Under the pieces are notes generated by a model. It was not told the DNA's origin. It searched no databases and worked only from the letters and a program-made list of their open reading frames with translations. From NCBI RefSeq assembly GCF_000331105.1, contig NC_020054.1, positions 2,921,451 to 2,985,450 of the forward strand: a stretch of DNA of 64,000 bases, read 5' to 3'. The translations under genes were made by a program, and so were the position numbers. Source of the stretch: Fibrella aestuarina BUZ 2. GTDB lineage: Bacteria > Bacteroidota > Bacteroidia > Cytophagales > Spirosomataceae. Positions 25,712 to 63,697 of the stretch are shown here, one piece after another (position 1 is the first letter of the stretch; every line of letters begins with the position of its first letter).

Positions 25712-25740
25712 GGGAAAAAGTAGAAACTGCCCTGTTTTAC
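25712..25740 (+). promoter_or_regulatory. ECF-type promoter motif upstream of GH38
   Basis: GGGAAAA (25712-25718), exactly 13 bp, CTGTTTTAC (25732-25740). Same architecture as the motifs before GH10, GH28, FecR and SusC. It ends 79 bp before the GH38 ATG at 25820. Confidence 0.7.
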
Positions 25741-25819
25741 AAACGCATACCTAGGGCGGGTAACGCTGAGATAGTATTCGATCCGAAATCTGCAAACAGC
25801 TACAGCTCCAGTGAACTTC

Positions 25820-28486
25820 ATGAAAAAAAGGTACCTGTTTCTTCTGTTAATGGTGGCTTGTTCAGCATTAGAGGCTCAGCCTGTCAACCGTCTATACATC
25901 GCCAACGACGACCATACCGATTACATGTGGACGGCGAATGAAGCCACGTATGACTCGGCGTTTGTGCACATGCTCGACTTCTACCTGCACCAGATCGACT
26001 CGACCCGCAATAGCCCCGCCGACTTTCAGGCGCGCTTCAACTGCGACGGGAGCTACTGGCTGCGGGCATACCAGAAGTTCCGCTCGCCAGCCCAGTTCGG
26101 TCGGCTGATCGCTGCCATCAAATCAGGGCATATCAGCAGCCCGCTCAATACGCTGGTAAACACCTACGGCGCACAACCGACGGAAGCCGTACTGCGCGGG
26201 ATGTATTACGCCGGTAGTCTGGAACGTACCCATAGCCTTCGGTTCAGACTGGCGCAGACGATGGAAAACAACACCATCCCGCTGGGTCTGAGCGCACTCT
26301 GGGCAGGGTCGGGCGCTAAATACAGCTATAAGGGCATTGGTGGTTACGGCAGTCAGATGACCTACGAATACCGCGACAACCGCCGCCACCAACTCTACCG
26401 CTACGCCGGTCTCGACGGGTCGGGCGTGCTGATGAAATGGTATACGTACAACGAAAAAACAGCCGCCCCGCTCGGGGGCTATGCCGAATGCCGACTGTTT
26501 CCGAAAAAGAGGCCTGCGGGTGTCAGTCAGACCGAAGAAATCAGCCGGGTTATTGCCAAACTGGATGCCTTGTGCGACACGGTCTCCCCCACATCAACGT
26601 ACCCGTTCAGGGTAGCGGGGGCGTTTGGCTACGGCTGGGACGATCTGGAAACGTACGTCTCAAACCCGTTTATCCAGGCCGCCCGCAACGCCACCAACGC
26701 CACTCGAAAAGTACGGGTATCGAACGAAGAAGATTTCTTTGACGACGTAGCCCGCAGCTACCCCAACCTCGCGGCCGAATCGGTAAGCTACGGCAACGAA
26801 TGGGACCTGTACTGTGCGTCGATGAACGAAACCACCGCGCGGGTACGTCGGTCGACCGAGAAGCTGCGGGCGGCAGAGGCGCTTGCCTCACTGGTGGCGC
26901 TAAAGAACCCCGGTTTCGCCCGTCAGCTTACCCCCGCCCGAGACCTGGCCTGGGAGTCATTTGGGATGTACTGGGAACACAACTGGACCGCCGACGGGCC
27001 CGTGAAACAGCCGGTCCGGGCCACCTGGCAAAACAAGATTCAGCGACAGATCACCAGCTACGTCGATTCACTGTTCAGGCGCTCCGTCGACGCGTTGGGT
27101 GCTCAACTCAAACGAGCAGCGAATCCACGATTCTTCGTCTTCAACCCCCTTGGCTGGACCCGTACCGACGTTGCCGATCTGGCTTACACAGGTACGTACC
27201 CGGTTCGGATCATCGATGCGTCGACGAAGCAGGAAGTAGCCAGTCAGCTAATCACCAAAGGCGGGCGTCGGTTTTTGCGCATCTGGGCCGAAAACATCCC
27301 GTCGGTTGGCTACAAAGTGTTTGAGCTAACGCCCGGAACGCCCGCCACCCGGCCTGTCGCCGCGACGGTTTCGGGCGAGTACATCACCAACAGCGATTAC
27401 CGACTGCGGCTCAGCCCATCGGGCGCTATTACGGACATTCAGGATCGTAAGGCCAACGGGCGACAACTGGTAAAGCCCCTCGACGGCAAATACGCGAACG
27501 ATCTGGGCGTGGGGGACGTCAACGCGGGCAGTCCCGTCGTTGCCGAAAACGTGGGGCCGGTGTCGGTCACGCTGAAAGCGGTTTCGCCGCTTCCCATACC
27601 CCACACGGTGCGGGTAACCCTGTTTGTCAGCGGCCGCAACGCCGGAGCGGGTCCGTCCCGCATCGAGATCGAAGACAGCCTTCAGGCCAATTTCAAAGAC
27701 GTAAAAACGTGGACCTTTTCGTTCAGCCTGACCAACCCGACAACGCACCACGAAGAGCTGGGCGCTATTCTGACGGCCAAAAAGGAGACGCAGGGGGGGC
27801 ACTACGCCGCCCAGAACGCCCGACTCGACTGGCAAACGTTCAACCACTTTGCTGACCTGAGCGAACCTACGTACGGTCGGGCCGCGTACGGTCGGGCCGC
27901 GTACGGGATTACGCTCTCCAACGTCGATTGCAGCTTCTTCAAGCTTGGCCAGAGCACTATCGATTCCCTGTGGGGTAGCTCGCCACAACTTCATGCACTG
28001 GCCGGGGGGCAGGTCGATACCAAGCGCGAAGACAAAGGCGCGTTGGGTATTCGGGGACAAAACGGCGAAACGGGCTTTCTGTACCAATTCGCACTCACTA
28101 CCCATGCAAGCAGTTTTGACCCGGTCAACGCGTTGAGATTTTCGCTCGAACATCAGAACCCACTCGTGACCGGGCTCGTCACCGGCACGGCAGACACGTA
28201 CCCAGCCCTAACGTTTTCGCTGTTAAAAATCAGCGACCCCAAAGTGCTACTCTGGGGCGTAAAACCCAGCGAAGACGGCATCGGGCAGGGGCTGATTACC
28301 CGCCTCTGGAACGTACCCGGACAGGCCACCACCGCCCGGCTGACGGCATCCAGCCCGATCGGTAAGGCCTGGCAAACGTCGCATATCGAAACCAATGAAC
28401 GCCTGTTAACACCAACAGGCAGGCAGTTGCAGCTCCGGTTCAGGCCAACGCAACTCAATACGTATCGTCTCCTGCTCACAAACTGA
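25820..28486 (+). CDS. Glycoside hydrolase family 38-like protein (alpha-mannosidase-like)
   Basis: Exported hydrolase of 888 residues from the ATG at 25820; a GTG nine bases earlier is possible. Signal peptide to about ALEAQ (residue 20). The N-terminal domain has the GH38 start motif as NDDHTDYMW (about 28-36), in which HxD-x-x-W is kept but the first histidine of the family's HxHxD is Asp. The C-terminal half (about 430-880) has the beta-rich GH38C character (FFVFNPLGWTRTDVADL; VTLFVSGRNAGAGPSRIEIE). Residues about 685-696 contain a duplicated pentapeptide (YGRAA twice). It starts the unit GH38 - ROK - permease - SIS (7-bp gap, 11-bp overlap, 12-bp gap), so the released sugar is probably imported, phosphorylated and isomerised by those products. 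Confidence 0.85.
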   Translation: MKKRYLFLLLMVACSALEAQPVNRLYIANDDHTDYMWTANEATYDSAFVHMLDFYLHQIDSTRNSPADFQARFNCDGSYWLRAYQKFRSPAQFGRLIAAIKSGHISSPLNTLVNTYGAQPTEAVLRGMYYAGSLERTHSLRFRLAQTMENNTIPLGLSALWAGSGAKYSYKGIGGYGSQMTYEYRDNRRHQLYRYAGLDGSGVLMKWYTYNEKTAAPLGGYAECRLFPKKRPAGVSQTEEISRVIAKLDALCDTVSPTSTYPFRVAGAFGYGWDDLETYVSNPFIQAARNATNATRKVRVSNEEDFFDDVARSYPNLAAESVSYGNEWDLYCASMNETTARVRRSTEKLRAAEALASLVALKNPGFARQLTPARDLAWESFGMYWEHNWTADGPVKQPVRATWQNKIQRQITSYVDSLFRRSVDALGAQLKRAANPRFFVFNPLGWTRTDVADLAYTGTYPVRIIDASTKQEVASQLITKGGRRFLRIWAENIPSVGYKVFELTPGTPATRPVAATVSGEYITNSDYRLRLSPSGAITDIQDRKANGRQLVKPLDGKYANDLGVGDVNAGSPVVAENVGPVSVTLKAVSPLPIPHTVRVTLFVSGRNAGAGPSRIEIEDSLQANFKDVKTWTFSFSLTNPTTHHEELGAILTAKKETQGGHYAAQNARLDWQTFNHFADLSEPTYGRAAYGRAAYGITLSNVDCSFFKLGQSTIDSLWGSSPQLHALAGGQVDTKREDKGALGIRGQNGETGFLYQFALTTHASSFDPVNALRFSLEHQNPLVTGLVTGTADTYPALTFSLLKISDPKVLLWGVKPSEDGIGQGLITRLWNVPGQATTARLTASSPIGKAWQTSHIETNERLLTPTGRQLQLRFRPTQLNTYRLLLTN
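27872..27906 (+). repeat. 15-bp in-frame tandem repeat in GH38
   Basis: The unit TACGGTCGGGCCGCG occurs twice in a row (27872-27886, 27887-27901) followed by a partial third copy (TACGG), encoding repeated Tyr-Gly-Arg-Ala-Ala. One of four 15-bp in-frame repeats in this window. Confidence 0.9.
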
Positions 28487-28493
28487 TTGACTC

Positions 28494-29444
28494 TTGAAAA
28501 CACTGGCGATCGGTATAGACATTGGGGGCACCCGGACAAAAATCGGGCTGGTCGACCTGGCCAGCGGTGTGGTCGACGCCATGCTCGTTACGCCCACCGA
28601 AACCAAAAACGGGGAGCAGTTTCTGCAACGGATCGGTACTGCCATCAGCCAGCTCAAAGACAAAGCCATTGCCGAACTTACCCAACTGGCGGGGGTGGGC
28701 ATCGGTGTGCCGGGCTTTGTGTTTGCCAACGGTGTCGTAGACTCCACGTACGGCTTTCTCGAATTCATGGAGGATTATCCGCTAGCCAGCTATATTCAGG
28801 AGCGACACGGGCTGCCCTGTTTGCTCGACAACGACGCCCGCGTGGTTGCACTGGGCGAGGCGACATTTGGCCAGGGGGAGAGGTTTAGCCGTGTTTTGGT
28901 CTTAACGCTGGGCACGGGCCTTGGGCTGGGTCTTACGGTCGATGGCAGGCTCGATGGTCCGCTGCCCTATGCTCACATGGGCGGCCACCTGACCATCACC
29001 ACCAACGATACGGTTTGCTACTGTGGCAAAACGGGCTGTCTGGAGTCGCTGGTATCATCGGCCGGTCTGCTGCGTATCGCGAACCGGCTGGGCTGGTCGC
29101 CGGAGCAGGCGGGTTTGCCACCAACGGCCGAGACGATTTTCAACCAGAAAAAAGCGGGCAATCCTCTCGCTGGGGCCATTGTGGACGAGTACATCGGCTA
29201 CCTGCAAACGGGGATCGACAACTACGTAAACCTATATGCCCCCGACATCATAGTGCTGGGAGGCGGCATGGCCAAGGGCCTTACGGGCGAAACCGACAGG
29301 CTGCACAACGCCCGTTTACTGAGCCCATACAAAGCGTATAAAACCCGCGTGACCATTTCTGACCTGGAAGAGAAGGCGGGCATTGTGGGCAGTGCCCTGC
29401 TGTTTAAACCCGAACGACTAGCCCCCTTACCCAATGAAAGCTAA
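28494..29444 (+). CDS. ROK-family sugar kinase
   Basis: Protein of 316 residues starting at a TTG at 28494; no ATG lies close, and the next Met would cut the ATP-binding motif. N-terminal phosphate motif IGIDIGGTRTKIGLVD, sugar-binding stretch LDNDARVVALGEA with catalytic Asp, second phosphate motif LTLGTGLGLGL, and the ROK zinc site (HMGGHLTI followed by CYCGKTGCLES) intact. C-terminal adenosine motif DIIVLGGGM. It should phosphorylate a hexose or N-acetylated hexose in the cytoplasm. Starts 7 bp after GH38 and overlaps the following permease by 11 bp. Confidence 0.92.
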   Translation: MKTLAIGIDIGGTRTKIGLVDLASGVVDAMLVTPTETKNGEQFLQRIGTAISQLKDKAIAELTQLAGVGIGVPGFVFANGVVDSTYGFLEFMEDYPLASYIQERHGLPCLLDNDARVVALGEATFGQGERFSRVLVLTLGTGLGLGLTVDGRLDGPLPYAHMGGHLTITTNDTVCYCGKTGCLESLVSSAGLLRIANRLGWSPEQAGLPPTAETIFNQKKAGNPLAGAIVDEYIGYLQTGIDNYVNLYAPDIIVLGGGMAKGLTGETDRLHNARLLSPYKAYKTRVTISDLEEKAGIVGSALLFKPERLAPLPNES

Positions 29445-30381
29445 ACCTGACAACTGGATTGTCTATTCAATAGCGGCAGCGTTTTTCTGGGGAACCTGGG
29501 GCGTGGTGGCCAAGCTTATTTCCGATCAGGTCAGCCCGTTTACCAATCACCTGCTGTTTAGCATCGGTATGCTGTTTACGCTGCCACTGATTCTTAACAA
29601 GGTCAAACGTACCCAGCCCAACCGGAAAGGGATCATTTGGGGACTGGTGGCAGGTGTGCTCGCTGTGATTGGCAATGTGGCGGTTTACCAGTCGTTTACG
29701 GCGGGCGGTTTAGCTGCCATTGTCATCCCCGTTACAAACCTCTACCCCCTGGTCACGATCGGCATCGCCCTGCTGGTGTTCAAGGAAAAACTGAACTGGA
29801 TCAACGCAATCGGTATCCTGCTGGCCATTCCTGCGGTGCTGTTGCTATCGGGCGAATCGCTGCTGTTCGATGACCCGGCGGCCTTCTTCCAAACCATCGG
29901 CCTCAATGCCGGAGCCGACCGTCGGTGGCTGCTCTATGCACTCGTTGCCCTATTTTTCTGGGGCGTGTTCAGCGCCGCCCAGAAAGAAACGACCAATCAT
30001 ATCTCGGCCGAATGGTCGTACGTCAGCTTCATCGTCTCGTCGGTGGGTATTGCGCTGCTGTTCATGGCGTTTGGCCTCGTCGATCTCGGGCTGTCGGCTA
30101 AAACGCTGGGCCTCGGTTCGCTGGCGGGTATGCTCAATGGGCTGGGCGTTTTGGCTAGTTTTGCCGCCTACAGCGCTGAAGGAAAAGCCTCGAAAGTAAC
30201 CACTATTGCCGGTACCCTTCAGCCCGTTTTTACCATTGGACTGGCCCTTGTTTTTCTGAATGAGCACCTGTCGCTCATCGAGTCGCTGGGCATTGGGCTG
30301 GCCATAGTGGGTGCCCTGACGCTATCGTACGAGACGCCTAAACCACAGCCCGAACCCCTTGAAAACGCATCAATGCAATAG
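29434..30381 (+). CDS. EamA/DMT-superfamily permease
   Basis: Integral membrane protein of 315 residues with about ten hydrophobic helices in two EamA-type halves (WIVYSIAAAFFWGTWGVVAKL near the start; LLYALVALFFWGVFSAAQKET at about residue 165). The repeated FFWG-x-W/F motifs show the internal duplication. By context (between a kinase and a sugar isomerase, after an exported glycosidase) it is the likely inner-membrane carrier for the released sugar. Substrate not readable. The start overlaps the end of the ROK gene. Confidence 0.88.
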   Translation: MKAKPDNWIVYSIAAAFFWGTWGVVAKLISDQVSPFTNHLLFSIGMLFTLPLILNKVKRTQPNRKGIIWGLVAGVLAVIGNVAVYQSFTAGGLAAIVIPVTNLYPLVTIGIALLVFKEKLNWINAIGILLAIPAVLLLSGESLLFDDPAAFFQTIGLNAGADRRWLLYALVALFFWGVFSAAQKETTNHISAEWSYVSFIVSSVGIALLFMAFGLVDLGLSAKTLGLGSLAGMLNGLGVLASFAAYSAEGKASKVTTIAGTLQPVFTIGLALVFLNEHLSLIESLGIGLAIVGALTLSYETPKPQPEPLENASMQ

Positions 30382-30393
30382 CTTTGTTTGGAG

Positions 30394-31311
30394 ATGAACC
30401 CTGTACTGAACGAAATTTTAGAGATACCCGCCCGCGCCATCGACGCGTTGAACACGCCGGTTGACGCCTTGCCGCTGCACGTAACGTACCTGGGCATGGG
30501 CTCGTCGTACTTCGCGCCGCTGGCCTTCAAGTACATAGGCGTGCCCATCAACCCGGAGCTAGCCTCGGAGTACTATTATTATCTGGCGAAGGGTAAAAAA
30601 GTGCCGCTGGCCGTGCTGCTGTCGCAGTCGGGGCGCAGCAGTGAGGTGCTGTGGTGCCGCGAGCTGTTCGAGCAGTATGTGGCAGTGTCCAACTACACTG
30701 ACAGCGACCTGTGTACAGCCCCCAACGTAGCGCGTGTCGTGCCTATTGGGGCGGGCGACGAGCATTATTCCTCCTCAAAAACCTACGTAAACACGCTCTT
30801 GACCCTGTTTAAAGGGTTTGGTTTTGACCCCCAATCAGCGGTGGCGTTGCTGGCCGACCGGTTTGAGCAGTACCGGCAGCAGGGCCAACAGCTCGCCGAT
30901 CAGCTACTGGCCGTGCGCAATCAGTACCCCATTCACGGCATGTACGTGACGGGCAGCGGGCCCAACATCGGTACGGCCTACGAGGCGGCGCTGATCTTGA
31001 GCGAAAGCACGAAGCTGAATTTTCACGGCCTGCCCATGGCGCAGTACGACCACGGCCCCAAAGAAACCGCCCAGAACAGTATCGTCATCCAGATCCTGAC
31101 GAAAGGACCGGCTTACGAACGTACCCGGCGCCTGTCGGAGACGATCGCGAAAGCGGGGGCGCATGTATTTACGGTCGAGACCGACGTTGAGGAGCCCTTT
31201 TCGGTCCTGCATACCATCGTGCCGTTCAACTTCGCGGCTTACTACATGGCCGAAAAACTGGGCATCGGCGAAACATTTGTGGTCGGCGGTAAAGTCACGG
31301 AAGCCGACTAA
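30394..31311 (+). CDS. SIS-domain sugar isomerase/deglycase
   Basis: Protein of 305 residues from the ATG at 30394 (a TTG six bases upstream is less likely). Two SIS domains as in the C-terminal half of GlmS and in FrlB/AgaS-type proteins: first domain THVTYLGMGSS-like start with VLLSQSGRSSEVL, second with GMYVTGSGPNIGTAYEAALILSES and the conserved catalytic-type stretch GLPMAQYDHGPKE. It would act on a phosphorylated amino or keto sugar made by the ROK kinase. Last gene of the GH38 unit, ending 3 bp from the convergent GntR gene. Confidence 0.88.
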   Translation: MNPVLNEILEIPARAIDALNTPVDALPLHVTYLGMGSSYFAPLAFKYIGVPINPELASEYYYYLAKGKKVPLAVLLSQSGRSSEVLWCRELFEQYVAVSNYTDSDLCTAPNVARVVPIGAGDEHYSSSKTYVNTLLTLFKGFGFDPQSAVALLADRFEQYRQQGQQLADQLLAVRNQYPIHGMYVTGSGPNIGTAYEAALILSESTKLNFHGLPMAQYDHGPKETAQNSIVIQILTKGPAYERTRRLSETIAKAGAHVFTVETDVEEPFSVLHTIVPFNFAAYYMAEKLGIGETFVVGGKVTEAD

Positions 31312-31314
31312 CCG

Positions 31315-32064
31315 TCAAAAGCGCCCCTGCAACAGAAATTGGTCGGTACGGGCGAAGAGGAGCGAGAAAAAGCTGAAATCGCTCTTGTTGGTATCGACCC
31401 GTTTTTCGAGCCGTAGGACCGGGCTACCGGGGGCCACCTGTAGTCGCTCGGCTATAGCCAGGCTGGCAGGAAGCGCCTGAATTTTCTGCTCGCCGCCCGT
31501 AACGACGAGTCCGTATTTTGTCCGCAGCAGGTCAAAAAACGAACGGTTCTCCATCCGTTGACGGGCCAGATTGGGTACGTACCGATTCGGCAGGATCAGC
31601 TTTTCAGAAAAGACTGGCGTGCCATCAACCGACCGCAACCGTTCCAGACAATAGTAGGTTGTGTCGGGCTGTTCACCGGCAGGAAAAAACAGCATATCGT
31701 CTGGAAACGGACAAAGCGTGGGTTTGGCCAGGATCGTCGTTGTGATCAGGTCGGCTGGCAGGTCATCGGGTGCTGCGGATTTGTCATCGGCCTGCACCGT
31801 ATGCGTTTTCAACGACATGACGCCCAGCCCAATCGGAATCGACTGCACTATGCTTCCTTTCCCCTGATGTTTTTTGATGTAGCCCTCCTGCACCAGCAGC
31901 GACAGCGCCTGCCGAATCGTCGGTTGCGTCAGTCGGTACTGTTGCTGAAGCACACTTTCGGAAGGCAATAAATCTCCCGCTTTGAACACGCCCCGGATAA
32001 TATCCTGCCGGAGCGCTTCATACAGATGCTGGTATTGGGGAATGCGATTCGGTTGGTCAGCCAT
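31315..32064 (-). CDS. GntR-family (HutC/UTRA subgroup) transcriptional regulator
   Basis: Regulator of 249 residues: N-terminal winged helix (about 10-78; YQHLYEALRQDIIRGVFKAGDLLPSE, LTQPTIRQALSLLVQEGYI) and C-terminal UTRA ligand domain (about 100-245; FFPAGEQPDTTYYCLERLRSVDG, ENRSFFDLLRTKYGL). UTRA domains bind phosphorylated sugars or related small ligands. It is divergent from the SDR operon and convergent with the GH38 operon. A perfect palindrome in the shared upstream region is the likely operator, so I expect it to repress the SDR operon and itself until its sugar phosphate appears. Confidence 0.93.
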   Translation of the reverse strand: MADQPNRIPQYQHLYEALRQDIIRGVFKAGDLLPSESVLQQQYRLTQPTIRQALSLLVQEGYIKKHQGKGSIVQSIPIGLGVMSLKTHTVQADDKSAAPDDLPADLITTTILAKPTLCPFPDDMLFFPAGEQPDTTYYCLERLRSVDGTPVFSEKLILPNRYVPNLARQRMENRSFFDLLRTKYGLVVTGGEQKIQALPASLAIAERLQVAPGSPVLRLEKRVDTNKSDFSFFSLLFARTDQFLLQGRF

Positions 32065-33093: not shown

Positions 33094-33990
33094 TTGAGTC
33101 AGGCAATAGGCATCGATTTAGGCGGAACCCGGATCAAAGGTGTCCTGATCGACCCGGCTACGGGCGCGGTCATCCATCAATTGGTTACCCCAACCGGTGA
33201 CGAAAATGGGGCAAACTGGCAGTCGGCCGTCGCCGAAACCGCACAGGCGCTGACCCGCCAGGCAACCGAGCCTATTCAGGGCATTGGCCTGTCGGCACCG
33301 GGCCTGCCCACGCCCGACAACCGGGCCATTGCCTGCATGCCGGGTCGCCTTCAGGGGCTGGAAGGGCTCGACTGGTCGGCCTATCTGGGTAGGCCCGTCC
33401 GGGTACTCAACGATGCCCACGCCGCCCTGATGGCCGAAGCCCGCTTTGGGGCACTGGCAGGCAGTCAGCACGGGCTGATGCTGACCCTCGGAACGGGCGT
33501 CGGGGGCGGGCTACTACTCAACGGACAGCTCTACCAGGGTTTCTACCAGATGGCGGGGCATCTGGGCCACATCACCGTCAACGCCGATAGCAGCCAACCC
33601 GACATTACCAACGTACCCGGCAGTCTGGAAGATGCCATCGGCAACGTGACGGTTGGCAGACGCTCGTTTGGCCGCTACCACAGCACCCACGAGCTGGTGG
33701 CCGGGTATCAGCAGGGCGAACCGCTGGCAGCACTCGTCTGGCTGACGTCCATTCGCCATCTGGCCGTAGCAATTGCCTCACTGGCCAATGCGTTTTCGCC
33801 CGAAGTGGTGGTACTGGGCGGCGGCATCATGCAGGCCGACACGGCCCTGCTGACACCGCTCGAAACCTTTATAGACTTATTTGAATGGCGACCCGCCGGT
33901 AAAAAAACGATCATCCGAAAAGCCCACTTCGACGATTGGTCCGGTGCCATCGGTGCGGCTGCTTTTCTACCCCACGAACAAACCATATGA
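33094..33990 (+). CDS. ROK-family kinase lacking the zinc motif
   Basis: Protein of 298 residues starting at TTG 33094. It has IGIDLGGTRIKGVLID, the catalytic-type stretch VLNDAHAALMAEARFG, LTLGTGVGGGLLL and VVVLGGGIM. The histidine of the zinc site is kept (MAGHLGHITVN), but the CxCGxxGCxE cysteines of typical ROK proteins are absent (replaced around SQPDITNVPGSLED). ROK members without the zinc cluster exist, so it may still be a kinase. Its last four bases overlap the start of the SIS gene (ATGA), showing translational coupling. Confidence 0.88.
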   Translation: MSQAIGIDLGGTRIKGVLIDPATGAVIHQLVTPTGDENGANWQSAVAETAQALTRQATEPIQGIGLSAPGLPTPDNRAIACMPGRLQGLEGLDWSAYLGRPVRVLNDAHAALMAEARFGALAGSQHGLMLTLGTGVGGGLLLNGQLYQGFYQMAGHLGHITVNADSSQPDITNVPGSLEDAIGNVTVGRRSFGRYHSTHELVAGYQQGEPLAALVWLTSIRHLAVAIASLANAFSPEVVVLGGGIMQADTALLTPLETFIDLFEWRPAGKKTIIRKAHFDDWSGAIGAAAFLPHEQTI

Positions 33991-35707: not shown

Positions 35708-35708
35708 T

Positions 35709-37106: not shown

Positions 37107-37117
37107 ACCGCCTGCCT

Positions 37118-38074: not shown

Positions 38075-38102
38075 TTTTTTGCCCTCATCTCTTACCTAAA
38101 CC

Positions 38103-39521: not shown

Positions 39522-39522
39522 T

Positions 39523-40752: not shown

Positions 40753-40781
40753 GGGAAAAAAGCGGGCTGCGTCCGTTTGTC
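40753..40781 (+). promoter_or_regulatory. ECF-type promoter motif upstream of GH10
   Basis: GGGAAAA (40753-40759), 13 bp, CCGTTTGTC (40773-40781), differing at two positions from CTGTTTnAC. Ends 27 bp before the GH10 ATG and lies in an 86-bp gap, suggesting that GH10 can be transcribed apart from the upstream operon. Confidence 0.68.
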
Positions 40782-40808: not shown

Positions 40809-42278
40809 ATGCACCCCATCGCTCTACATGACCCGGCACCTGGCCTTACTGTCAGGCTGCGCTTACAGCTGACCGCCACCTGCGTTTTGCTTACTTCGTT
40901 GACTACCAGCTTATTGGCGCAGCCGACTGGTAAGCGCATCGACGAACAGGCTGCGGCGGCCAGGGTTGGGCATGATTCGTTGGGGGCCGAACGTACCCGC
41001 ATCGAGGCCGAGTACCTGGCAAAGGCTACGGCCAACATCGAAAAATACCGGAAAGGCGACGCCCGTTTGTCGTTTGTCGATGCGACGGGTAAGCCCGTTC
41101 GGAATGTGCTGGTCACGGTGAATCAGGTATCGCAGGATTTCCTATTCGGCAATCTGGTCTTTGAACTGGGTGGTTTTGCGCCTAAAGAGCCCTACAAAGT
41201 CGACCTGTTCAAAGAGCGGTTCAAAGCCCTGTTTAATATGGCTGTTTTGCCGTTCTACTGGGGGCGCTACGAACCGACACCGGGTATGCCCGAGTGGCAG
41301 CGCAATCAGGACGCCCTCGACTGGTGCCTGGCCAATGGCATTACGACCAAAGGCCATACGCTGGGCTGGACATCTCCGTCCGGTACCCCAACATGGCTGT
41401 TGCAGCTTTCGCCCGAGGTAGCCACGGATGTGTATAAAGCCCGGATCATGAACAACGTGCTGGGTTTCAAAGGGAAGATCAATATCTGGGACGTAGTGAA
41501 CGAGCCGGTCAACACCGTGCCCTGGGAAGTTGCCCTGAAAGACACCGCCAACACCAACGACTTCCGGTACAATGTCAACAACGTACCCGTCGAGGCCATT
41601 ACACCCTGGGTCGAGCAGTCGTTTAAGTGGGCCTACGCAGCAAACCCCGACGGCAACTACATTCTGAACGAGTACTTTACGCTAGCCATTCCGAAGGTCA
41701 GGGAGCGCTTTTACCAGTTGCTGAAGGCCCTGAAGAGCCGAAATGCCCCCATCAGTGGCATTGGCATTCAGGGCCACGAACCGCGCGAAATGTGGTTCTC
41801 GCCGGTGGAAGTGTACAAGACCTTTGATCTCTATCAGGAATTTGGTCTGCCGATCCACATCACCGAGCTGATTCCGCAATCGTCGGGGAAGCCGATCAAA
41901 GGCTGGCGCACCGGCACCTGGACGGAAGAGGCCCAAGCCGAATTTGCCCGTCAGTTTTATACCCTGGCCTACGGTCACCCGGCCATTGCGTCGATCAACT
42001 GGTGGGGGTTGTCTGACCGGAGTATCTGGCTGAAGGGCGGCGGGTTGCTCGATGAGGCGTACAACCCCAAGCCCGTGTACAACGTGCTGATGAAGCTCAT
42101 CAAAGACGAGTGGATGACAAAAAATGTCAAGCTGGTTTCGTCCAAAAAAGGCGAAACAACGTTTCGGGGTTTCTTTGGGAAGTACCAGTTACTCGTCACC
42201 AAACCCGACGGCAGTCAGCAAACGATTGACGTTCACCTGCGCGAAAAACCGGATAATCAGTGGACGTTCACCCTTTAA
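40809..42278 (+). CDS. Glycoside hydrolase family 10 (endo-1,4-beta-xylanase-like)
   Basis: Exported protein of 489 residues; the long basic N-terminus with hydrophobic core ends near LLAQ (residue 37). The GH10 TIM barrel covers about residues 110-410: FYWGRYEPTPG, TKGHTLGWTSPSGTPTWL, the acid/base Glu in IWDVVNEPVNTVPW, and the nucleophile Glu in LPIHITELIPQSS. SINWWGLSDRSIW is the conserved tryptophan-rich strand. A C-terminal tail (VKLVSSKKGETTFRGFFGKY) resembles a small beta domain. It should cut xylan-type or related beta-1,4 chains. Followed by GMC and TIM-barrel genes. Confidence 0.93.
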   Translation: MHPIALHDPAPGLTVRLRLQLTATCVLLTSLTTSLLAQPTGKRIDEQAAAARVGHDSLGAERTRIEAEYLAKATANIEKYRKGDARLSFVDATGKPVRNVLVTVNQVSQDFLFGNLVFELGGFAPKEPYKVDLFKERFKALFNMAVLPFYWGRYEPTPGMPEWQRNQDALDWCLANGITTKGHTLGWTSPSGTPTWLLQLSPEVATDVYKARIMNNVLGFKGKINIWDVVNEPVNTVPWEVALKDTANTNDFRYNVNNVPVEAITPWVEQSFKWAYAANPDGNYILNEYFTLAIPKVRERFYQLLKALKSRNAPISGIGIQGHEPREMWFSPVEVYKTFDLYQEFGLPIHITELIPQSSGKPIKGWRTGTWTEEAQAEFARQFYTLAYGHPAIASINWWGLSDRSIWLKGGGLLDEAYNPKPVYNVLMKLIKDEWMTKNVKLVSSKKGETTFRGFFGKYQLLVTKPDGSQQTIDVHLREKPDNQWTFTL

Positions 42279-42344
42279 CCTGCCCAACACCAATCAGCCT
42301 GCAACGTGCTGGGTGAAGGGGCGATCACTAAACCAACAGAAAGC

Positions 42345-44051
42345 ATGGCAAAGTTGACGACGTACGACGCGATTGTGATTGGCTCGGGTATCAGCGGTGG
42401 CTGGGCGGCCAAAGAGTTGACCCAAAAGGGTTTACGCACGCTGGTGCTGGAGCGCGGCCGACCGGTCGAGCACGTCAAAGACTATCCAACTACGCTGTCG
42501 AGCCCCTGGGAGATGACCCACCGGGGCCGTTATCCGCTCGATGTGCTGGCTCAAAGTCCCACGCAGGCCAAAGTCAGCTACGCCTTCAACGAATATTCGG
42601 GACGGTTTTTTGTAAAAGATACCGACCACCCATACCAGCAAACCAAGCCTTTCGACTGGATTCGGGGGTATCAGGTGGGCGGTAAATCGCTGAGCTGGGC
42701 GCGGTGGACTCAGCGCTGGGCACCGTTCAACTTTGAAGATAACCTGAAAGACGGACACGGCGTCGACTGGCCCATTCGCTACGACGATCTGGCCCCCTGG
42801 TATAGCTACGTCGAAAAGTTTGCGGGTATCAGCGGGAATAAAGACGGGCTGTCGACGCTGCCCGATGGTGAGTTTCTGCCGCCCTTCGAGATGAATTGCA
42901 TCGAGAAAAGCGTGCGCGACGCCTGGAAAAAGCAGTACGCCGCCCGCCACCTGATCATCAGCCGAACGGCCAACCTCAGCAAAGCCCAGCCCGTTCATCT
43001 GGCGCTGGGCCGGGCCGACTGCCAGTCGCGCAACTGGTGCGGACGCGGGTGTTTGTACGGCGCTTATTTCAGCAGTAACTCGGCGACCCTGCCCGCTGCC
43101 GCTAAAACCGGGAAGCTTACCATCCGCCCGTTCTCGATCGTTCACTCGATTATCTACGACGAGACAAAGGGCAAAGCAACGGGCGTCCGGGTGATCGATA
43201 CCAACACGAAGGAGATGACCGAGTACTATGCCAAGGTTATTTTCGTCAATGCCGCTACGCTCAACTCCACGCTGATTCTGCTCAACTCCACCTCAAGCCG
43301 GTTTCCAAACGGGCTGGGCAACGATAGCGGCGCACTCGGCCACTACCTGATGGACCACAATTACCGGGGCCGGGTCAGTGGTGTTTACGAAGGCACCGAC
43401 CTGAACGACAGCTATTATTACGGGCGACGCCCCACAGGTACGTATGTGCCCCGCTTTCGGAACGTACTGGCCGATACGCAGCGTGATTTCGTCAGGGGCT
43501 ACGCCTATGCCTGCGGTGGCGGCCGAGCCGGTTGGGAACGGGGTGGTTGGACCGATGGCTTCGGTGCCGATTTCAAAGAGAAGCTGACGCAGCCGGGCGG
43601 CTGGTCATTTAGTATGACGGCGATGGGCGAAATGCTGCCCCGGTACGAAAACCACGTCAAGCTGAATACCGACAAAAAAGATCAGTGGGGCATGCCGACC
43701 CTCGACATCGACTGCGCCTGGGGCGAAAACGAAGACCGAATGACGCGCGATGCCATTGAGCAGGCCAAAGCGATGATGGAAGCGGCGGGCATCCGGGTTA
43801 CGGTGGCTATCGACAACAAACAGCCGCCCGGCCTGGCGATCCACGAAATGGGCACCGCCCGCATGGGGCGCGACCCCAAAACGTCGGTGCTGAACAAGTG
43901 GAATCAGGTTCACGCGGTCAAGAATGTATTCGTTACCGACGGGGCGAGTATGGCGTCGTCGGCTTGCCAGAACCCCTCGCTGACCTATATGGCCCTGACG
44001 GCCCGCGCCGCCAATTATGCCGTTCGGCAACTCAAAGCAGGTACGTTGTAA
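42345..44051 (+). CDS. GMC-family FAD oxidoreductase
   Basis: Protein of 568 residues from the ATG at 42345; a GTG 39 bases upstream only adds an unconserved stretch. FAD motif IVIGSGISGGWAAKEL near the start, LVLERG, WARWTQRW region, and the C-terminal GMC signature (LAIHEMGTARMGRDP; VTDGASMASSACQNPSLTYMALTARAA). A cysteine-rich insert (ADCQSRNWCGRGCLYGAY) suggests an iron-sulphur or structural cluster as in the soluble sugar dehydrogenases. No signal peptide. It probably oxidises a sugar hydroxyl to a keto group. Followed 6 bp later by a TIM-barrel epimerase. Confidence 0.91.
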   Translation: MAKLTTYDAIVIGSGISGGWAAKELTQKGLRTLVLERGRPVEHVKDYPTTLSSPWEMTHRGRYPLDVLAQSPTQAKVSYAFNEYSGRFFVKDTDHPYQQTKPFDWIRGYQVGGKSLSWARWTQRWAPFNFEDNLKDGHGVDWPIRYDDLAPWYSYVEKFAGISGNKDGLSTLPDGEFLPPFEMNCIEKSVRDAWKKQYAARHLIISRTANLSKAQPVHLALGRADCQSRNWCGRGCLYGAYFSSNSATLPAAAKTGKLTIRPFSIVHSIIYDETKGKATGVRVIDTNTKEMTEYYAKVIFVNAATLNSTLILLNSTSSRFPNGLGNDSGALGHYLMDHNYRGRVSGVYEGTDLNDSYYYGRRPTGTYVPRFRNVLADTQRDFVRGYAYACGGGRAGWERGGWTDGFGADFKEKLTQPGGWSFSMTAMGEMLPRYENHVKLNTDKKDQWGMPTLDIDCAWGENEDRMTRDAIEQAKAMMEAAGIRVTVAIDNKQPPGLAIHEMGTARMGRDPKTSVLNKWNQVHAVKNVFVTDGASMASSACQNPSLTYMALTARAANYAVRQLKAGTL

Positions 44052-44057
44052 GCGCTT

Positions 44058-44864
44058 ATGACGATCAAATTTTTCGCGCCCGAGTGGGGCAACACCTTAC
44101 CCTTTGCTACGTTCTGCCAAAACGTGAAAGCCGCTGGCTATGACGGGGTCGAGATGGCGCTGCCACTCGATCCGGCCAAAAAGCAGGCCGTGCTGGGTAC
44201 GTTGCACGAGTACGGCCTCGAACTGATCGGACAGTACTGGCAATCGTTCGAGACGGATTTGGCCGAACACATGCGCAACTATGAAACATACCTGCGCAAC
44301 CTGATCGAGGCCCGGCCCGTGCTGGTGAATTGCCAAACAGGCAAAGACTTTTTCAGCCCGGAACAGAACCGGCAATTGTTCGCGCTGGCCGCCCAAATCT
44401 CGGCCGAAACCGGCGTGAAGATCATCCACGAAACGCATCGAGGCAAATCACTCTTTGCCGCTCATGTCACACAGCACTTCCTGACCAGCCTCCCCGACCT
44501 GCGGCTCTGTCTGGATATATCGCACTGGTGTACGGTGCATGAATCGCTGCTCGCCGATCAGCCCGAAGCCGTGGCGCTGGCCATTGCCCATACCGACCAC
44601 ATTCACAGCCGGGTGGGGCATCCCGAAGGGCCACAGGTGAACGACCCGCGTGCCCCGGAATGGGAAACAACGCTCAACACGTACCTCGCCTGGTGGGATC
44701 GGGTCGTCGAACAGCATCGAGCGGCGGGCACGCAGTTGACGATCAACACCGAGTTTGGCCCCACGCCCTACATGCCCACGCAGCCCTATTCGCAGGAGCC
44801 GCTGGCCAGTCAGTGGGAGGTCAACGTCTTCATGCTGAACCTGTTGAAAGCCCGCTATGCCTGA
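44058..44864 (+). CDS. Cytoplasmic sugar phosphate isomerase/epimerase-family TIM barrel
   Basis: Protein of 268 residues without a signal peptide. Xylose isomerase-like barrel: ligands in GYDGVEMALP, VKIIHETHRGKSL (about 122-134), LCLDISHWCTV, HTDHIHSRVGHPEG and LTINTEFGPTPY. Paired with the GMC enzyme (6-bp gap), which suggests that it works on the oxidised product. Its gene ends 6 bp from the convergent AraC gene. Confidence 0.88.
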   Translation: MTIKFFAPEWGNTLPFATFCQNVKAAGYDGVEMALPLDPAKKQAVLGTLHEYGLELIGQYWQSFETDLAEHMRNYETYLRNLIEARPVLVNCQTGKDFFSPEQNRQLFALAAQISAETGVKIIHETHRGKSLFAAHVTQHFLTSLPDLRLCLDISHWCTVHESLLADQPEAVALAIAHTDHIHSRVGHPEGPQVNDPRAPEWETTLNTYLAWWDRVVEQHRAAGTQLTINTEFGPTPYMPTQPYSQEPLASQWEVNVFMLNLLKARYA

Positions 44865-48983: not shown

Positions 48984-49601
48984 ATGAAAGCCCACCTGAC
49001 CCAGTCCGAACACATCGCCCTCTGGAATACCTTCCGGAGTGGCCAACCCGACGCCTTTTCAACGTTGTATTCGCTGTTCTCGGCCGACCTGTACCGCTAC
49101 GGCTACAACCTGGTTCGGAACCGGCAGGTGGTGGAAGATTGTCTGCACGAACTGTTTCTGCACCTGCACGAAAACCGCAGCCGACTTGGACCGACCGACA
49201 ATATCCGGTTTTACCTGTACCGCTCACTCCGTCGCCGGTTGCTCGACACCGTGGGCCGATTGGCACGGCATGGTTCCGATGAATACCTCTTTACTGATGC
49301 GGCGTTTACGATTCAGCCTCACGAGCACGTACTTATTGAAAGCGAACTGGCCGAACGGCAGAAAGCACTGGTCACCCTGGCCTTGAATCAACTTCCCAGG
49401 CGGCAGAAAGAGATTCTCTACCTCGTGTACATGAAGGGGCTAACGTACCCACAGGCCGCTGAGGTAATGGCGATCTCCCTGAAAAGCGTGTATAACACGA
49501 TCAACATCGCGCTGATGGCTATGCGTAGGTACGTTCGGCAGTCGGTCGAAACGAGTGGGGCGCTGCTGAGTTTAATCGGCTGGTTGGTAGCCATCAGTTG
49601 A
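48984..49601 (+). CDS. ECF-type sigma factor without adjacent FecR
   Basis: Sigma factor of 205 residues. Residues 34-78 (from ADLYRYGYN to NIRFYL, region 2) are identical to the same residues of the sigma factor at 61947, and region 4 (LPRRQKEILYLVYMKGLTYP, AAEVMAISLKSVYNTINIAL) is nearly so, so both should read the same promoters. Unlike its twin it has no FecR gene next to it: it lies 8 bp after PhyH and is followed by GH28. A copy of the GGGAAAA-N13-CTGTTT motif lies 20 bp after its stop codon. It may be held by the FecR at 62640 or act free of an anti-sigma factor. Confidence 0.94.
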   Translation: MKAHLTQSEHIALWNTFRSGQPDAFSTLYSLFSADLYRYGYNLVRNRQVVEDCLHELFLHLHENRSRLGPTDNIRFYLYRSLRRRLLDTVGRLARHGSDEYLFTDAAFTIQPHEHVLIESELAERQKALVTLALNQLPRRQKEILYLVYMKGLTYPQAAEVMAISLKSVYNTINIALMAMRRYVRQSVETSGALLSLIGWLVAIS

Positions 49602-49621
49602 GAACTAGCAGCGAGGAAACC

Positions 49622-49650
49622 GGGAAAACGGAGACGCCGGTCTGTTTCAC
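49622..49650 (+). promoter_or_regulatory. ECF-type promoter motif upstream of GH28
   Basis: GGGAAAA (49622-49628), 13 bp, CTGTTTCAC (49642-49650). It ends only 4 bp before the ATG of GH28 at 49655, so the transcript would be nearly leaderless, or the true start codon is the second Met or further in. Confidence 0.7.
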
Positions 49651-49654
49651 AGGC

Positions 49655-51172
49655 ATGATGTGCCCGCTGCTGACTCTAAACCGGAAACCCCTGCTCGTCT
49701 TTGTCTGTCTCTCACTGATGGCTACCTCTGTTTTGGGTCAGTCGTATTCCATACGCGACTTTGGGGCCAAAACGGATAGCACGTTTCTGAACACAAAAGC
49801 GATTCAGAAAGCCATTGATAAATGCCACGCCAACGGCGGGGGCGAAGTGGTGGTACCGGCGGGTACGTTCTACACGGGGACTATTTTCCTGAAATCGAAC
49901 GTCTATTTGCACCTGATGCCCGGCGCGGTGTTGCAGGGCAGCTATAACCCCGCCGATTACCCTGAACACGACATTCTGGCGGCGAAGAAATTTGGCACCA
50001 TTACGCACAATGGCCTGTACCTGACCTACATGAAGGCGCTGGTCATTGCCGACAAGGCCACGCATACCGGCATCATCGGGCTGGGTACGTTGCGCGGGCC
50101 GGGTGAGGGCAAGGCGTTTCAACTGGGGCTGAACAAAGACGGCAAGCCCAAAAACATCTTCTTTATCGGCTGTCAGGATGTGCTGCTGGAAGGCATCCGC
50201 ATCCTGAACTCGGCACAAATTACGGTCTCGATCTCGGGTTGTGAACGCGTGACGATCAACCGAATCTACCTGCATAGCTGGGTGAACTGGAACTGCGACG
50301 GGCTGGACATCGACGGGAAGGATGTCATCATTGCCAACTCCATCATCGACTCGGAAGACGACGCGCTTTGCTTCAAAAGTGAGTACCTGGCGAAGTTCTG
50401 TGAAAACATAACGGTCACCAACTGCGTGCTGTCGAGCATCTGCAACGGCATCAAATTCGGCACCGGCTCACGCTCGGGTTTTCGGAATATCACCGTCACC
50501 AACTGCATCATCAAGAAAAGCGATGTGAACGCATTTCGCCATTGGGACATGCCGCCGAGCGTGGTGTACAAGCCCGAAGAGACGAGTGTCAACTGCGGCA
50601 TCGTGATTCTGGGTGTCGATGGCGGCCTCGTGGAGAACATCAACATCTCCGACATTGTGATGACCGATGTGCTGAGTCCAATCTTTATCCGGGTAGGCAA
50701 ACGCTTCGTGAATCCGGAGCAGAAACCGTCGGTGATGCGGCACATCAACATCCAGAATATCCGGGCCGAAACGCGCAGTATCATCCCAAGCATCATTGCC
50801 GGCCTGGAAGAAAGCCCCGCCGAAGACATCCGGCTGTCGAACATTCGGATTGCCATCCCGATACGCGTTTCAGCCGATTCGCTCCAAACGATCCCCGCCG
50901 TCATTCCTGAAAGCATAAAAGGCTATCCCGAAAACCGGGTGACGTTTGGGACTAAGCTGCCCGCCAGCGCTTTTTATATCAAGCACGCGAAAAATCTGAC
51001 CCTCAGCGACATAACAATTACCCAGAGTCAGCCCGATGCCCGCTCCGCCTTTTACCTGGATGATGTGGTTGGGATGAAACTCCGAACCGTAACGATCGAC
51101 AACAAGAAGCTGGTGAAAAGCGAGGCCATGCTGGTGCACAAGAAAAGTGAGCAGATTGAACTGATCGACTAA
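49655..51172 (+). CDS. Glycoside hydrolase family 28 (polygalacturonase-like)
   Basis: Exported protein of 505 residues from the ATG at 49655 (or the next Met). An in-frame TTG at 49598 lies before the promoter motif and is rejected. Signal peptide to about SVLGQS (residue 29). It is a right-handed parallel beta-helix: SIRDFGAKTDSTFLNTKAIQ at the start, catalytic region NWNCDGLDIDG and DSEDDALCFKSE with the paired Asp, and NGIKFGTGSRSGFRNIT where polygalacturonases have their histidine. The changed last motif suggests an exo-acting or rhamnogalacturonan-type enzyme. It follows the sigma gene and has its own ECF-type promoter. Confidence 0.9.
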   Translation: MMCPLLTLNRKPLLVFVCLSLMATSVLGQSYSIRDFGAKTDSTFLNTKAIQKAIDKCHANGGGEVVVPAGTFYTGTIFLKSNVYLHLMPGAVLQGSYNPADYPEHDILAAKKFGTITHNGLYLTYMKALVIADKATHTGIIGLGTLRGPGEGKAFQLGLNKDGKPKNIFFIGCQDVLLEGIRILNSAQITVSISGCERVTINRIYLHSWVNWNCDGLDIDGKDVIIANSIIDSEDDALCFKSEYLAKFCENITVTNCVLSSICNGIKFGTGSRSGFRNITVTNCIIKKSDVNAFRHWDMPPSVVYKPEETSVNCGIVILGVDGGLVENINISDIVMTDVLSPIFIRVGKRFVNPEQKPSVMRHINIQNIRAETRSIIPSIIAGLEESPAEDIRLSNIRIAIPIRVSADSLQTIPAVIPESIKGYPENRVTFGTKLPASAFYIKHAKNLTLSDITITQSQPDARSAFYLDDVVGMKLRTVTIDNKKLVKSEAMLVHKKSEQIELID

Positions 51173-54016: not shown

Positions 54017-54229
54017 GTCGCGCTTGCTGTTTGGGCCAATCGTGCAGTAGCTGGTAGCTGACGGGGCCAAATTTGATGGCGTCGGCTTCCGGGGGCATTG
54101 CCGGTATAGGATGGCTCCCGACGATACGATTACCTTCAGCACCCCGCTTTCAACGGCTTCAACAGGTGGGGTCAATGGGAGGGTGTCTACTACGCATCAA
54201 GCGCCTTGTTGGTTGATGAGGTCCGGAAC

Positions 54230-60614: not shown

Positions 60615-60629
60615 CCGTTGAAAATGGGA

Positions 60630-60851: not shown

Positions 60852-60861
60852 CTTCACCTTT

Positions 60862-61872: not shown

Positions 61873-61946
61873 TAACCAATCGGTAATTGTCCGGTAAATG
61901 CCCGAAACAGCTCCGTTTCCTTAATCTCGTTCAGACCAGTCCGTGC

Positions 61947-62573
61947 ATGGCTCCTCAACTCACTGCCGCTCAACATACACAGCTCTGGAACGCCTTTCGG
62001 GAGGGCGATCGGGCCGCGTTTGCCCGGTTATACGACCTGTTTGCGGCCGACCTGTACCGCTACGGCTATAACCTGGTGCGCAACCGGCAGGTGGTGGAAG
62101 ATTGCCTGCACGAACTGTTCCTGCACCTGCACGAAAACCGCAGTCGACTTGGACCGACCGATAACATCCGCTTTTACCTGTTCCGTGCCCTGCGTCGGCG
62201 GCTGCTGGATACGGTGGGTCGGTTCAATAAGCTCGACTCGGCCGACTACCTGTTTGATGAGGCCCAGTTTTTGATTCAGCCCCACGAGACAGCCCTGATT
62301 GCGGAAGAGTTGATGGATCATCAAAAACGAATCCTGATCGATGAATTGAACCGACTCCCTAAACGCCAGAAAGAGATTTTGTACCTGGTGTACATGAAGG
62401 AGATGAGCTACCCGCAGGCGGCCGAGGTGATGGGCATTACCCTGAAGAGCGTGTACAATACCCTCAACGTTTCCCTGGCGGCGTTGCGGGCTACGATGCA
62501 GCAGGCGTTGCAACTAAAAGGGGCATTGGTGAGCCTGGCGAGCCTGCTTACGGGTTACTTCGCAAATAATTAA
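61947..62573 (+). CDS. ECF-type sigma factor paired with FecR (61.9 kb)
   Basis: Sigma factor of 208 residues from the ATG at 61947; 20 codons upstream are discarded. Region 2 (residues 34-78) is identical to that of the sigma factor at 48984, and DNA identity there is also high, with only scattered synonymous differences, so the two are recent duplicates or are kept alike by gene conversion. Region 4 reads LPKRQKEILYLVYMKEMSYP then AAEVMGITLKSVYNTLNVSL. It is followed by the ECF-type promoter motif, FecR and SusC. Confidence 0.95.
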   Translation: MAPQLTAAQHTQLWNAFREGDRAAFARLYDLFAADLYRYGYNLVRNRQVVEDCLHELFLHLHENRSRLGPTDNIRFYLFRALRRRLLDTVGRFNKLDSADYLFDEAQFLIQPHETALIAEELMDHQKRILIDELNRLPKRQKEILYLVYMKEMSYPQAAEVMGITLKSVYNTLNVSLAALRATMQQALQLKGALVSLASLLTGYFANN

Positions 62574-62586
62574 TTGGCCCGAAGAC

Positions 62587-62615
62587 GGGAAAAACTAAGT
62601 TAAGTCCTGTTTAAC
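62587..62615 (+). promoter_or_regulatory. ECF-type promoter motif upstream of FecR
   Basis: GGGAAAA (62587-62593), 13 bp, CTGTTTAAC (62607-62615), starting 14 bp after the sigma stop codon and ending 24 bp before the FecR ATG. Confidence 0.7.
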
Positions 62616-62639
62616 GAGTACCACCCTGATGCCTGTGCA

Positions 62640-63611
62640 ATGCCATACGCCACATTTACTGTCGACGACTTCTGCAACGATCCTTACTTCATCCAATGGG
62701 TAGTACACCCAACCGATGAATCGAATCAGTTCTGGCAGGCGTTTATGGTGGACTATCCGCACAAGAGGGAGACGGTTCAACAGGCAATCGACTTCGTCAA
62801 AACGATTCAGTTTCAGGAAATCGAGCCGTCTGAACTCGATCTGGCGCGGTTGAAGCAGCGTATCTGGGCCGACATCGACCAACCCGTGCGCGTGGTGCAG
62901 TGGTATCGGCGGCCGGGCTGGCTGGCAGCGGCCATGGTGCTGATTACGCTGGCCAGCCTTGGCTGGTGGACCTACCAGGCGACGCCAACCCACCAGACGG
63001 CCTACGGAGAAACAAAGGAGCTTAAACTGGCCGATGGCTCGACGGTCACGCTCAATGCCAACTCCTCGCTCAAAGAAGGGGATAACCTCGCCGATGCGGC
63101 CGTTCGGGAAGTGTGGCTCAGCGGCGAAGCCTATTTCAGCATCGCTAAACGCAAGGGAGCCAAGTTTATCGTCCACACGGCTGACGCGGCCGTGGAAGTG
63201 CTGGGCACGGAATTCAACGTAAACACCCGGCGGAAGCAGACCAATGTTGTCTTGCTCGAAGGCAAGGTGCAGCTCACCACCGCCGATCAGCCCGCCGTGG
63301 TGATGAAACCCGGCGACATGGCGACCGTGTTGCCCCAGCGCCGACAGATTCAGCTTAAAAAAGTGGTACCCGAAGCCTATGAGGCCTGGCGAGAAGCCTA
63401 CCTCGTGCTGGATGGAAAAAGCCTGCCGGAGATCATCAGCACCCTGGAAGATACCTTCGGCGTCACCATCACGCTGAACAATGAGCGGTTGGCTGGCAAG
63501 ACGCTCAGCGGCAAACTGCGCACCAAAGTGGCCGACGATTGCATCGAGGATCTGGCCATCATTCTGGAGGCCGACGTTAAAAAAACGGGGGATACGTACC
63601 TGTTCGAGTAA
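62640..63611 (+). CDS. FecR-family anti-sigma factor (62.6 kb)
   Basis: Anti-sigma factor of 323 residues. Cytoplasmic part (FIQWVVHPTDESNQFWQAFM; FQEIEPSELDLARLKQRIW), transmembrane segment around residues 98-115 (WLAAAMVLITLASLGWW), FecR domain (ELKLADGSTVTLNANSSLKE, VWLSGEAYFSIAKRKGAKF, VEVLGTEFNVNTRRKQT) and a C-terminal STN-like domain (LPEIISTLEDTFGVTITLN; KTLSGKLRTKVADDCIEDL). It should control the sigma factor at 61947 and possibly its twin at 48984. Confidence 0.94.
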   Translation: MPYATFTVDDFCNDPYFIQWVVHPTDESNQFWQAFMVDYPHKRETVQQAIDFVKTIQFQEIEPSELDLARLKQRIWADIDQPVRVVQWYRRPGWLAAAMVLITLASLGWWTYQATPTHQTAYGETKELKLADGSTVTLNANSSLKEGDNLADAAVREVWLSGEAYFSIAKRKGAKFIVHTADAAVEVLGTEFNVNTRRKQTNVVLLEGKVQLTTADQPAVVMKPGDMATVLPQRRQIQLKKVVPEAYEAWREAYLVLDGKSLPEIISTLEDTFGVTITLNNERLAGKTLSGKLRTKVADDCIEDLAIILEADVKKTGDTYLFE

Positions 63612-63668
63612 CCAGCGTCAGACAGTCGAAAGATTTAAAAATTAACCGGAAATAATCATAGAAAAAAC

Positions 63669-63697
63669 GGGAAAAGGGCCAACCCCGTCTGTTTGAC
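63669..63697 (+). promoter_or_regulatory. ECF-type promoter motif upstream of SusC
   Basis: GGGAAAA (63669-63675), 13 bp, CTGTTTGAC (63689-63697), in the FecR-SusC gap, ending 42 bp before the SusC ATG. The central part can also fold weakly (ACGGG with CCCGT), which is a less likely reading given the four other copies. Confidence 0.72.

Follow-up and report, generated by a model that had tools for sequence, protein, structure and literature searches.

The stretch of DNA analysed here, hereafter the window, is 64,000 nucleotides from Fibrella aestuarina BUZ 2 (Spirosomataceae, Bacteroidota; contig NC_020054.1, positions 2,921,451 to 2,985,450). It encodes an extracytoplasmic function (ECF) sigma factor next to a FecR-type regulator and a SusC-like transporter, as well as several putative glycosidases, and it contains five copies of a two-box motif that are very probably promoters for this sigma factor. 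The features are as follows, with N13 for the 13-bp spacer between the boxes. (Scores in the list are from a matrix built from other genomes, described below.)

25712..25740 (+): predicted ECF promoter of the GH38-like operon; -35 box GGGAAAA, N13, -10 box CTGTTTTAC; exact match; score 26.8
25811..31311 (+): probable operon for a GH38-like protein (25811/25820-28486), a ROK kinase, an EamA transporter and a 307-amino-acid protein (Pfam)
40753..40781 (+): predicted promoter variant of the GH10 operon; GGGAAAA, N13, CCGTTTGTC; score 21.6
40809..44864 (+): probable operon for a GH10 enzyme, a GMC oxidoreductase and a xylose-isomerase-like TIM barrel protein (Pfam)
48984..49601 (+): ECF sigma factor paralogue 2, with Sigma70_r2 and r4 domains; not adjacent to fecR; 66% identical to the 61947 sigma factor
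49622..49650 (+): predicted ECF promoter of the GH28 gene; GGGAAAA, N13, CTGTTTCAC; exact match; score 26.0
49655..51172 (+): GH28 rhamnogalacturonidase/polygalacturonase-like enzyme (Glyco_hydro_28)
61947..62573 (+): ECF sigma factor 1 (Pfam), the proposed reader of the motif, whose subfamily tracks the motif
62587..62615 (+): predicted ECF promoter of fecR, between the sigma gene and fecR; GGGAAAA, N13, CTGTTTAAC; exact match
62640..63611 (+): FecR-type anti-sigma factor/regulator, with FecR and FecR_C domains
63669..63697 (+): predicted ECF promoter of the SusC/SusD operon; GGGAAAA, N13, CTGTTTGAC; exact match
63740..64000 (+): start of a SusC-like TonB-dependent transporter, 1162 amino acids, running beyond the window; TIGR04056 (OMP_RagA_SusC), 934 bits
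C2:3002989-3003543 (-), in genome coordinates: third sigma paralogue, 17.5 kb to the right of the window

All three sigma factors have only regions 2 and 4 of Sigma70 (PF04542, PF08281/PF04545), as in ECF (group IV sigma70) factors. The protein at 62640-63611 is of the FecR type, with both PF04773 (72.4 bits) and PF16344 (34.6 bits) over the cut-off. Beyond the window, the genes after susC encode a SusD, then a TonB-receptor plug domain protein and another SusD. The gene adjoining the TIGR04056 hit has both SusD_RagB and SusD-like_3 domains, which identifies a SusC/SusD polysaccharide utilization locus. Near the N-terminus of SusC, residues 46-110 match PF16344 (FecR_C; 29.5 bits, cut-off 24.4), the type of domain at FecR's own C-terminus. 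The domain search did not report STN for this SusC; the window's two other SusC-type proteins have STN. A first-pass annotation of the window, made without database searches, had proposed this SusC as the sensor, and the match to the FecR_C signalling domain makes that plausible.

The five sites that the first-pass annotation listed (25712, 40753, 49622, 62587 and 63669) are all at those coordinates and all on the plus strand. Four of them match GGGAAAA-N13-CTGTTTNAC exactly, and the second box at 40753 is a variant, CCGTTTGTC, with 2 mismatches to that pattern. It is correct that GGGAAAA occurs six times on the plus strand, in five cases with the second box, and there are 3 further GGGAAAA words on the minus strand. 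In an alignment of the sites, the information content of N13 is low, in agreement with the description of the spacer as unconserved. All five sites were also said to lie in gaps. This is true for 4 of the 5 when genes are called simply as the longest ORFs, but 49622 is inside a mechanical open reading frame (ORF) at 49598-51172. That ORF has a TTG start, and the site is upstream of the ATG at 49655, which is the likelier start of the GH28 gene. (Open frames from stop to stop overlap 4/5 window sites and 6/7 of the other genome places found below, so this test does not discriminate.)

To compare the sites with chance, we searched for GGGAAAW-N13-CYGTTTNAC with at most 1 mismatch. The window has 5 matches, which are just the five sites, versus a mean of 0.04 and a maximum of 1 in 100 shuffles. 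The same search of the whole 6.94-Mb genome finds 12 places, including the five. In other words, 5/12 of the near-exact places lie inside one 38-kb stretch (binomial P = 4e-9, calculated after the cluster was known). If 2 mismatches are allowed, the genome-wide count rises to 61, but the reversed pattern reaches 49. This longer list is mostly background, and the motif therefore carries information only when near-exact. The two exact matches to GGGAAAA-N13-CTGTTT outside the window sit in long ORFs, which shows that chance can produce the word. A chance origin of the GH10 site alone is conceivable. That all five copies arose by chance, or that one sequence was recently copied, is hardly credible: just 0.04 are expected in the window, the positions are kept over several genera (see below), and the spacers are unrelated, so we reject the copying of one promoter.

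Two other observations concern these places. The near-exact site at C2:1052529 precedes a gene for a 126-amino-acid protein with a cytochrome-like CxxCH, and we left it aside. We also considered an inverted-repeat operator, because AAACAGGG and CCCTGTTT flank the GH38 site, but by eye this pair is not repeated at the other sites, and we rejected it.

For related genomes, we used a matrix built from only the window's five sites and allowed only the 13-bp spacer. We tested 22 relatives with the sigma factor (named by G numbers below). In 19 of them, a copy of it is followed by FecR and SusC in the fetched stretch (sigma identity of at least 51%); the other three (G053, G201 and G215) lack FecR there. 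The motif is positioned near sigma orthologues, a check that the first-pass annotation had suggested. All 19 of the module-bearing relatives have a site in the gap between fecR and susC, with scores of 16.7-27.2, and it is always 51-75 bp before the estimated start of SusC. In the 170 bp after the sigma gene and before fecR, 14 of the 19 have a site that scores at least 15.8, and this site recurs across genera. By comparison, a score of 15 is reached in 1.1% of 170-bp windows drawn at random from these loci (with the true sites included).

The motif also follows the sigma factor across the family. We considered a genome to be sigma-positive if it encodes a relative of the 61947 sigma factor at E = 1e-45 or better, and we scored up to 14 candidates per genome; the split depends on both choices. 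Of 222 family genomes, 23 are sigma-positive, including F. aestuarina's own. (In a second collection, the named genera with a sigma factor of at least 54% identity are Spirosoma, Dyadobacter, Rhabdobacter and Telluribacter, plus two metagenome-assembled genomes.) The exact pattern, GGGAAAW-N13-CYGTTTNAC, occurs in 34 of the 222 genomes: 19 of the 23 that are sigma-positive and 15 of the 199 that are sigma-negative (P = 9e-15, Fisher exact test, uncorrected for kinship). By hand count, the sigma-positive genomes have 39 exact sites versus 4 for the reversed pattern, and the sigma-negative genomes have 15 versus 27, which look like background. All but one of these 15 sites (the exception is in G209) were placed, and 11 of the 14 overlap an open frame of at least 120 codons, stop to stop, and 3 do not. 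This is a weak test, given that 4 of the 5 window sites overlap open frames too.

As a control, we examined the loci of other ECF sigma factors. A search of six family genomes with the sigma factor at 11100 (from the window's second system) gave 107 matches, and we examined 30 of these loci, 24 of which have a detectable FecR. None of the 30 scored above 13.1 within 1500 bp downstream. At the target loci, 19/21 score at least 16.7; the misses are G053 and G201, and the 22nd (G215) was excluded because its contig cuts it short. Similarly, across 15 FecR-SusC gaps of other sigma factors, no score was above 10.1. (Fourteen of these gaps are beside sigma factors of 29-39% identity and one is the window's second system; 9 of the 24 stretches were dropped because no SusC was in reach.) Within the window, there are two more ECF sigma/FecR/TonB-receptor sets, at 9755-4324 (-) and 11100-16446 (+). 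Both are genuine sets, and the motif was not found at either.

We also made a matrix from 19 sites in other genomes, which were chosen from pattern hits and include none from F. aestuarina. It ranks the five window sites as the top five in 137 kb, with scores of 21.6-28.8, and the next scores 16.3. A candidate at C2:3012215 (score 16.3) is inside an ORF (3011004-3012485), and we did not count it as a further site. As for autoregulation by the sigma factor, this matrix found no site of at least 9 bits upstream of the sigma genes. A look-alike, GGTAAAT-N13-CCGTTT, lies at 61893-61918, before the 61947 sigma gene, and is too weak to be a candidate.

The sites within the sigma factor's own locus, with -35 and -10 boxes at a fixed spacing and upstream of genes, are thus restricted to its subfamily, as for an ECF promoter. 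The central proposal of the first-pass annotation, that a shared ECF-type promoter links glycosidase genes to the sigma/FecR/SusC locus, is supported by the genome scan, by the position beside sigma orthologues, and by specificity.

To describe the signal more fully, we combined 17 distinct SusC-type sites with 12 distinct FecR-type sites, including those of F. aestuarina (FecR-type sites were used only if they scored at least 15.8). The consensus is an A-tract, C, GGGAAAW, N13 and CYGTTTNAC, and the information is in the two boxes, the preceding C and the A-tract. ACGTTT or TCGTTT replaces CTGTTT in some of the FecR-type sites, so GTTTNAC is the firmer core. By hand count, base 27 of the 29-bp site (the N in NAC) is G in 12/17 SusC-type sites and A in 9/12 FecR-type sites, as if the promoters of susC and fecR were tuned differently.

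Our interpretation, which we hold with considerable confidence, is that the five sites are promoters, with (C)GGGAAAW at -35 and CYGTTTNAC at -10, 13 bp apart, for the 61947 ECF sigma factor and possibly for its close paralogues, and that they define an ECF-sigma/FecR/SusC regulon. The two-box layout fits the -35 and -10 elements of ECF promoters. Near -10, boxes of CGT and TGTT have been described in ECF-type promoters from Flavobacterium psychrophilum (PMC9723704) and Bacteroides thetaiotaomicron (PMC12596196). Comparison of genomes establishes the sites, their restriction to one sigma subfamily, and a position that is fixed relative to SusC and in many cases also precedes FecR. We infer the contact with the sigma factor, the start sites, the flow of the signal, the extents of the operons and the glycan. 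(The "plant glycan" of the first-pass annotation is a reasonable guess.)

Alternatively, an ordinary activator (of the AraC type or a hybrid two-component regulator, for instance) might bind the two boxes and occur together with the sigma locus. The window does have an AraC-type gene (54206-55066) and a GntR gene (31315-32064), and the sites of activators may also have two fixed half-sites. However, neither box is a direct or inverted repeat of the other, and their layout, spacing and distance from the gene are those of -35 and -10 elements. Also, the sites track the sigma subfamily, and the site between the sigma gene and fecR recurs across genera. We consider an activator to be quite improbable.

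Several results do weigh against sigma-dependent promoters. Between the sigma gene and fecR, 5 of the 19 relatives score 11.4 or less. Four sigma-positive genomes lack the exact pattern: G084 and G218 have degenerate sites, and in G053 and G201 the stretch contains no FecR. Of the 39 exact sites, some are distant from the sigma locus (G092, contigs C71 and C76; G155, contig C7) and may be due to chance. The sites used to train the foreign matrix were selected for their resemblance to the pattern. And the genomes are kin and so not independent samples, which inflates the Fisher and rank values. Two further difficulties involve the paralogues of the sigma factor and the enzyme genes.

The first-pass annotation described a sigma pair, but there are three close paralogues, the third being outside the window. 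They are 65-68% identical, they lie within 33 kb, and two of them are without FecR. All three might read the same code and share or compete for one FecR, which would be a refinement of our interpretation, not an alternative to it. The three proteins are identical over residues 41-60 and have a near-identical (T/S)LKSVYNT segment in region 4, and a motif site lies directly after the orphan sigma gene at 48984. In the fetched stretches of the relatives, there are 12 FecR-less sigma copies across nine genomes, three of which (G053, G201 and G215) have no FecR-linked copy there. On the other hand, just 1 of the 12 FecR-less copies has a clear downstream site (in G210, score 22.8; G185 has one marginal site, at 14.0), and F. 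aestuarina's third paralogue has none, which argues against extending the code to the paralogues. Likeness of the DNA-contacting regions is no proof of common targets. On balance, we lean slightly against a code shared by all three.

The sigma genes at 48984 and 61947 are also similar in their codons. In windows over residues 31-80, 14-17 of the 19-20 codons for the same residue are shared, and elsewhere this ranges from 2/9 to 12/17. This is a weak hint of gene conversion between the two genes: because residues 31-60 are similarly alike in the third paralogue, the hint comes mainly from residues 51-80.

As for the enzyme genes, sites with scores above 20 precede only 3/28 homologues of the GH38-like gene, 1/10 of GH28 and 1/5 of GH10, which again counts against our interpretation. 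(These counts exclude F. aestuarina's own genes, two fragmentary matches in G213, and two GH38-like homologues that were not fetched.) Most of the GH38-like homologues (22/28) are only 46-67% identical, and of the 6 that are at least 72% identical, 3 have a site. One of the 3 close homologues without a site (in G205) is from a sigma-negative genome. G187 has a site before its GH38-like orthologue (76% identity), with the same three genes next, and an exact site before its GH10 orthologue (80%), with a GH28 orthologue (84%) directly behind. This makes a second GH28 homologue that is behind a site, the GH10 one. The GH38-like gene is also preceded by a site in G213 and G215, as is the GH28 gene in G210. 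Given how uneven these sites are, the sensor genes are the conserved core, which enzyme operons join or leave. Sites before enzyme genes turn over between genomes.

The enzyme annotations vary in quality. GH10 is a clear assignment for 40809-42278 (Pfam). The GH38 label of the first-pass annotation has the support of one C-terminal domain, PF17677, but the match is weak (25.8 bits, cut-off 22), and no solved structure matched the protein by sequence. For the GH28 protein, the best NCBIfam is NF049898 (rhamnogalacturonidase), at 244.8 bits, which is under its cut-off of 500. The GH28 site ends 4 bases before the ATG at 49655, so if this start is correct, the GH28 mRNA may be leaderless. The extents of the two probable operons, 25811..31311 and 40809..44864, were inferred from the spacing of the genes. 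Also, 33094-40722 and 42306-44051 contain a run of genes for a ROK kinase, TIM-barrel proteins, FAD and GMC oxidoreductases, and Gfo/Idh/MocA proteins, and this run is kept in G210 and G181 at 77-93% identity. It may be an oxidative (3-keto) sugar route.

By analogy with known systems (PMC3878776, PMC11501099), the regulon might work as follows. SusC would bind its glycan, and its N-terminal FecR_C-like domain would signal to FecR in the inner membrane. FecR would then release or activate the sigma factor, and RNA polymerase with this sigma factor would start at the five sites. The products would be FecR (feedback), SusC/SusD (uptake), and the proteins of three enzyme operons, whose first genes are those for the GH38-like, GH10 and GH28 proteins. 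Because there is a site between the sigma gene and fecR, we predict that FecR rises when the sigma factor is active, which would be a feedback.

Control of SusC/SusD loci by ECF sigma factors and FecR-type anti-sigma factors is known in Bacteroidetes (PMC3878776, PMC11501099). As in the polysaccharide utilization loci that these articles describe, the F. aestuarina locus brings together a sigma factor, a FecR with FecR_C, a SusC with an N-terminal signalling-type domain, SusD and glycoside hydrolases. What differs is that the promoter code can be read, at fecR and susC as well as at three dispersed enzyme operons, and that there are two extra FecR-less sigma factors. FecIRA of E. coli (PMC9249621) also has a sigma factor, a FecR-type regulator, a TonB-dependent transducer, and a sigma-dependent promoter before the transporter, but it is for ferric citrate rather than glycans, and here a promoter is also predicted between the sigma gene and fecR and before separate enzyme operons. 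In B. thetaiotaomicron, the ECF sigma factor SigW-1 activates the SusC/D and enzyme genes of PUL59, with TGTT near -10 (PMC12596196). Unlike here, SigW-1 is distant from its target locus, and that study did not find its motif to be statistically significant. The SM6 promoters of F. psychrophilum have an anti-sigma/ECF gene pair among their targets, but instead of glycan genes, the SM6 set includes several components of type IX secretion (PMC9723704).

B. thetaiotaomicron has 50 ECF sigma factors, nearly half of them within polysaccharide loci (PMC12596196). Predicting ECF promoters without start-site data has been called challenging (PMC3878776), and as of 2020, no motif was known for any ECF sigma factor of B. 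thetaiotaomicron, according to PMC7366714. We did not find the motif in the titles and abstract openings of the literature that we searched. (We do not claim that it is unpublished, as work on ECF classification may list one.) The control system is of a known type; its usefulness lies in a promoter code that can be read.

More broadly, each subfamily of ECF/FecR/SusC sigma factors in the Bacteroidota might have its own promoter code, and a comparison of the fecR-susC gap among relatives could reveal it, even without start-site data. In the subfamily studied here, one FecR/SusC sensor would gate a few sigma paralogues, interchangeable with one another, and these would drive scattered enzyme operons via the same code. 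This generalization is tentative, and we have more doubt about it than about the shared code itself. Bacteroidota can have dozens of ECF sigma factors per genome, and the promoters that these read are mostly unknown. Here, a promoter code was fixed by comparison alone, with controls from within the family, and it predicts a regulon of five operons. The code leads directly to the design of reporters and offers a recipe for other ECF subfamilies.

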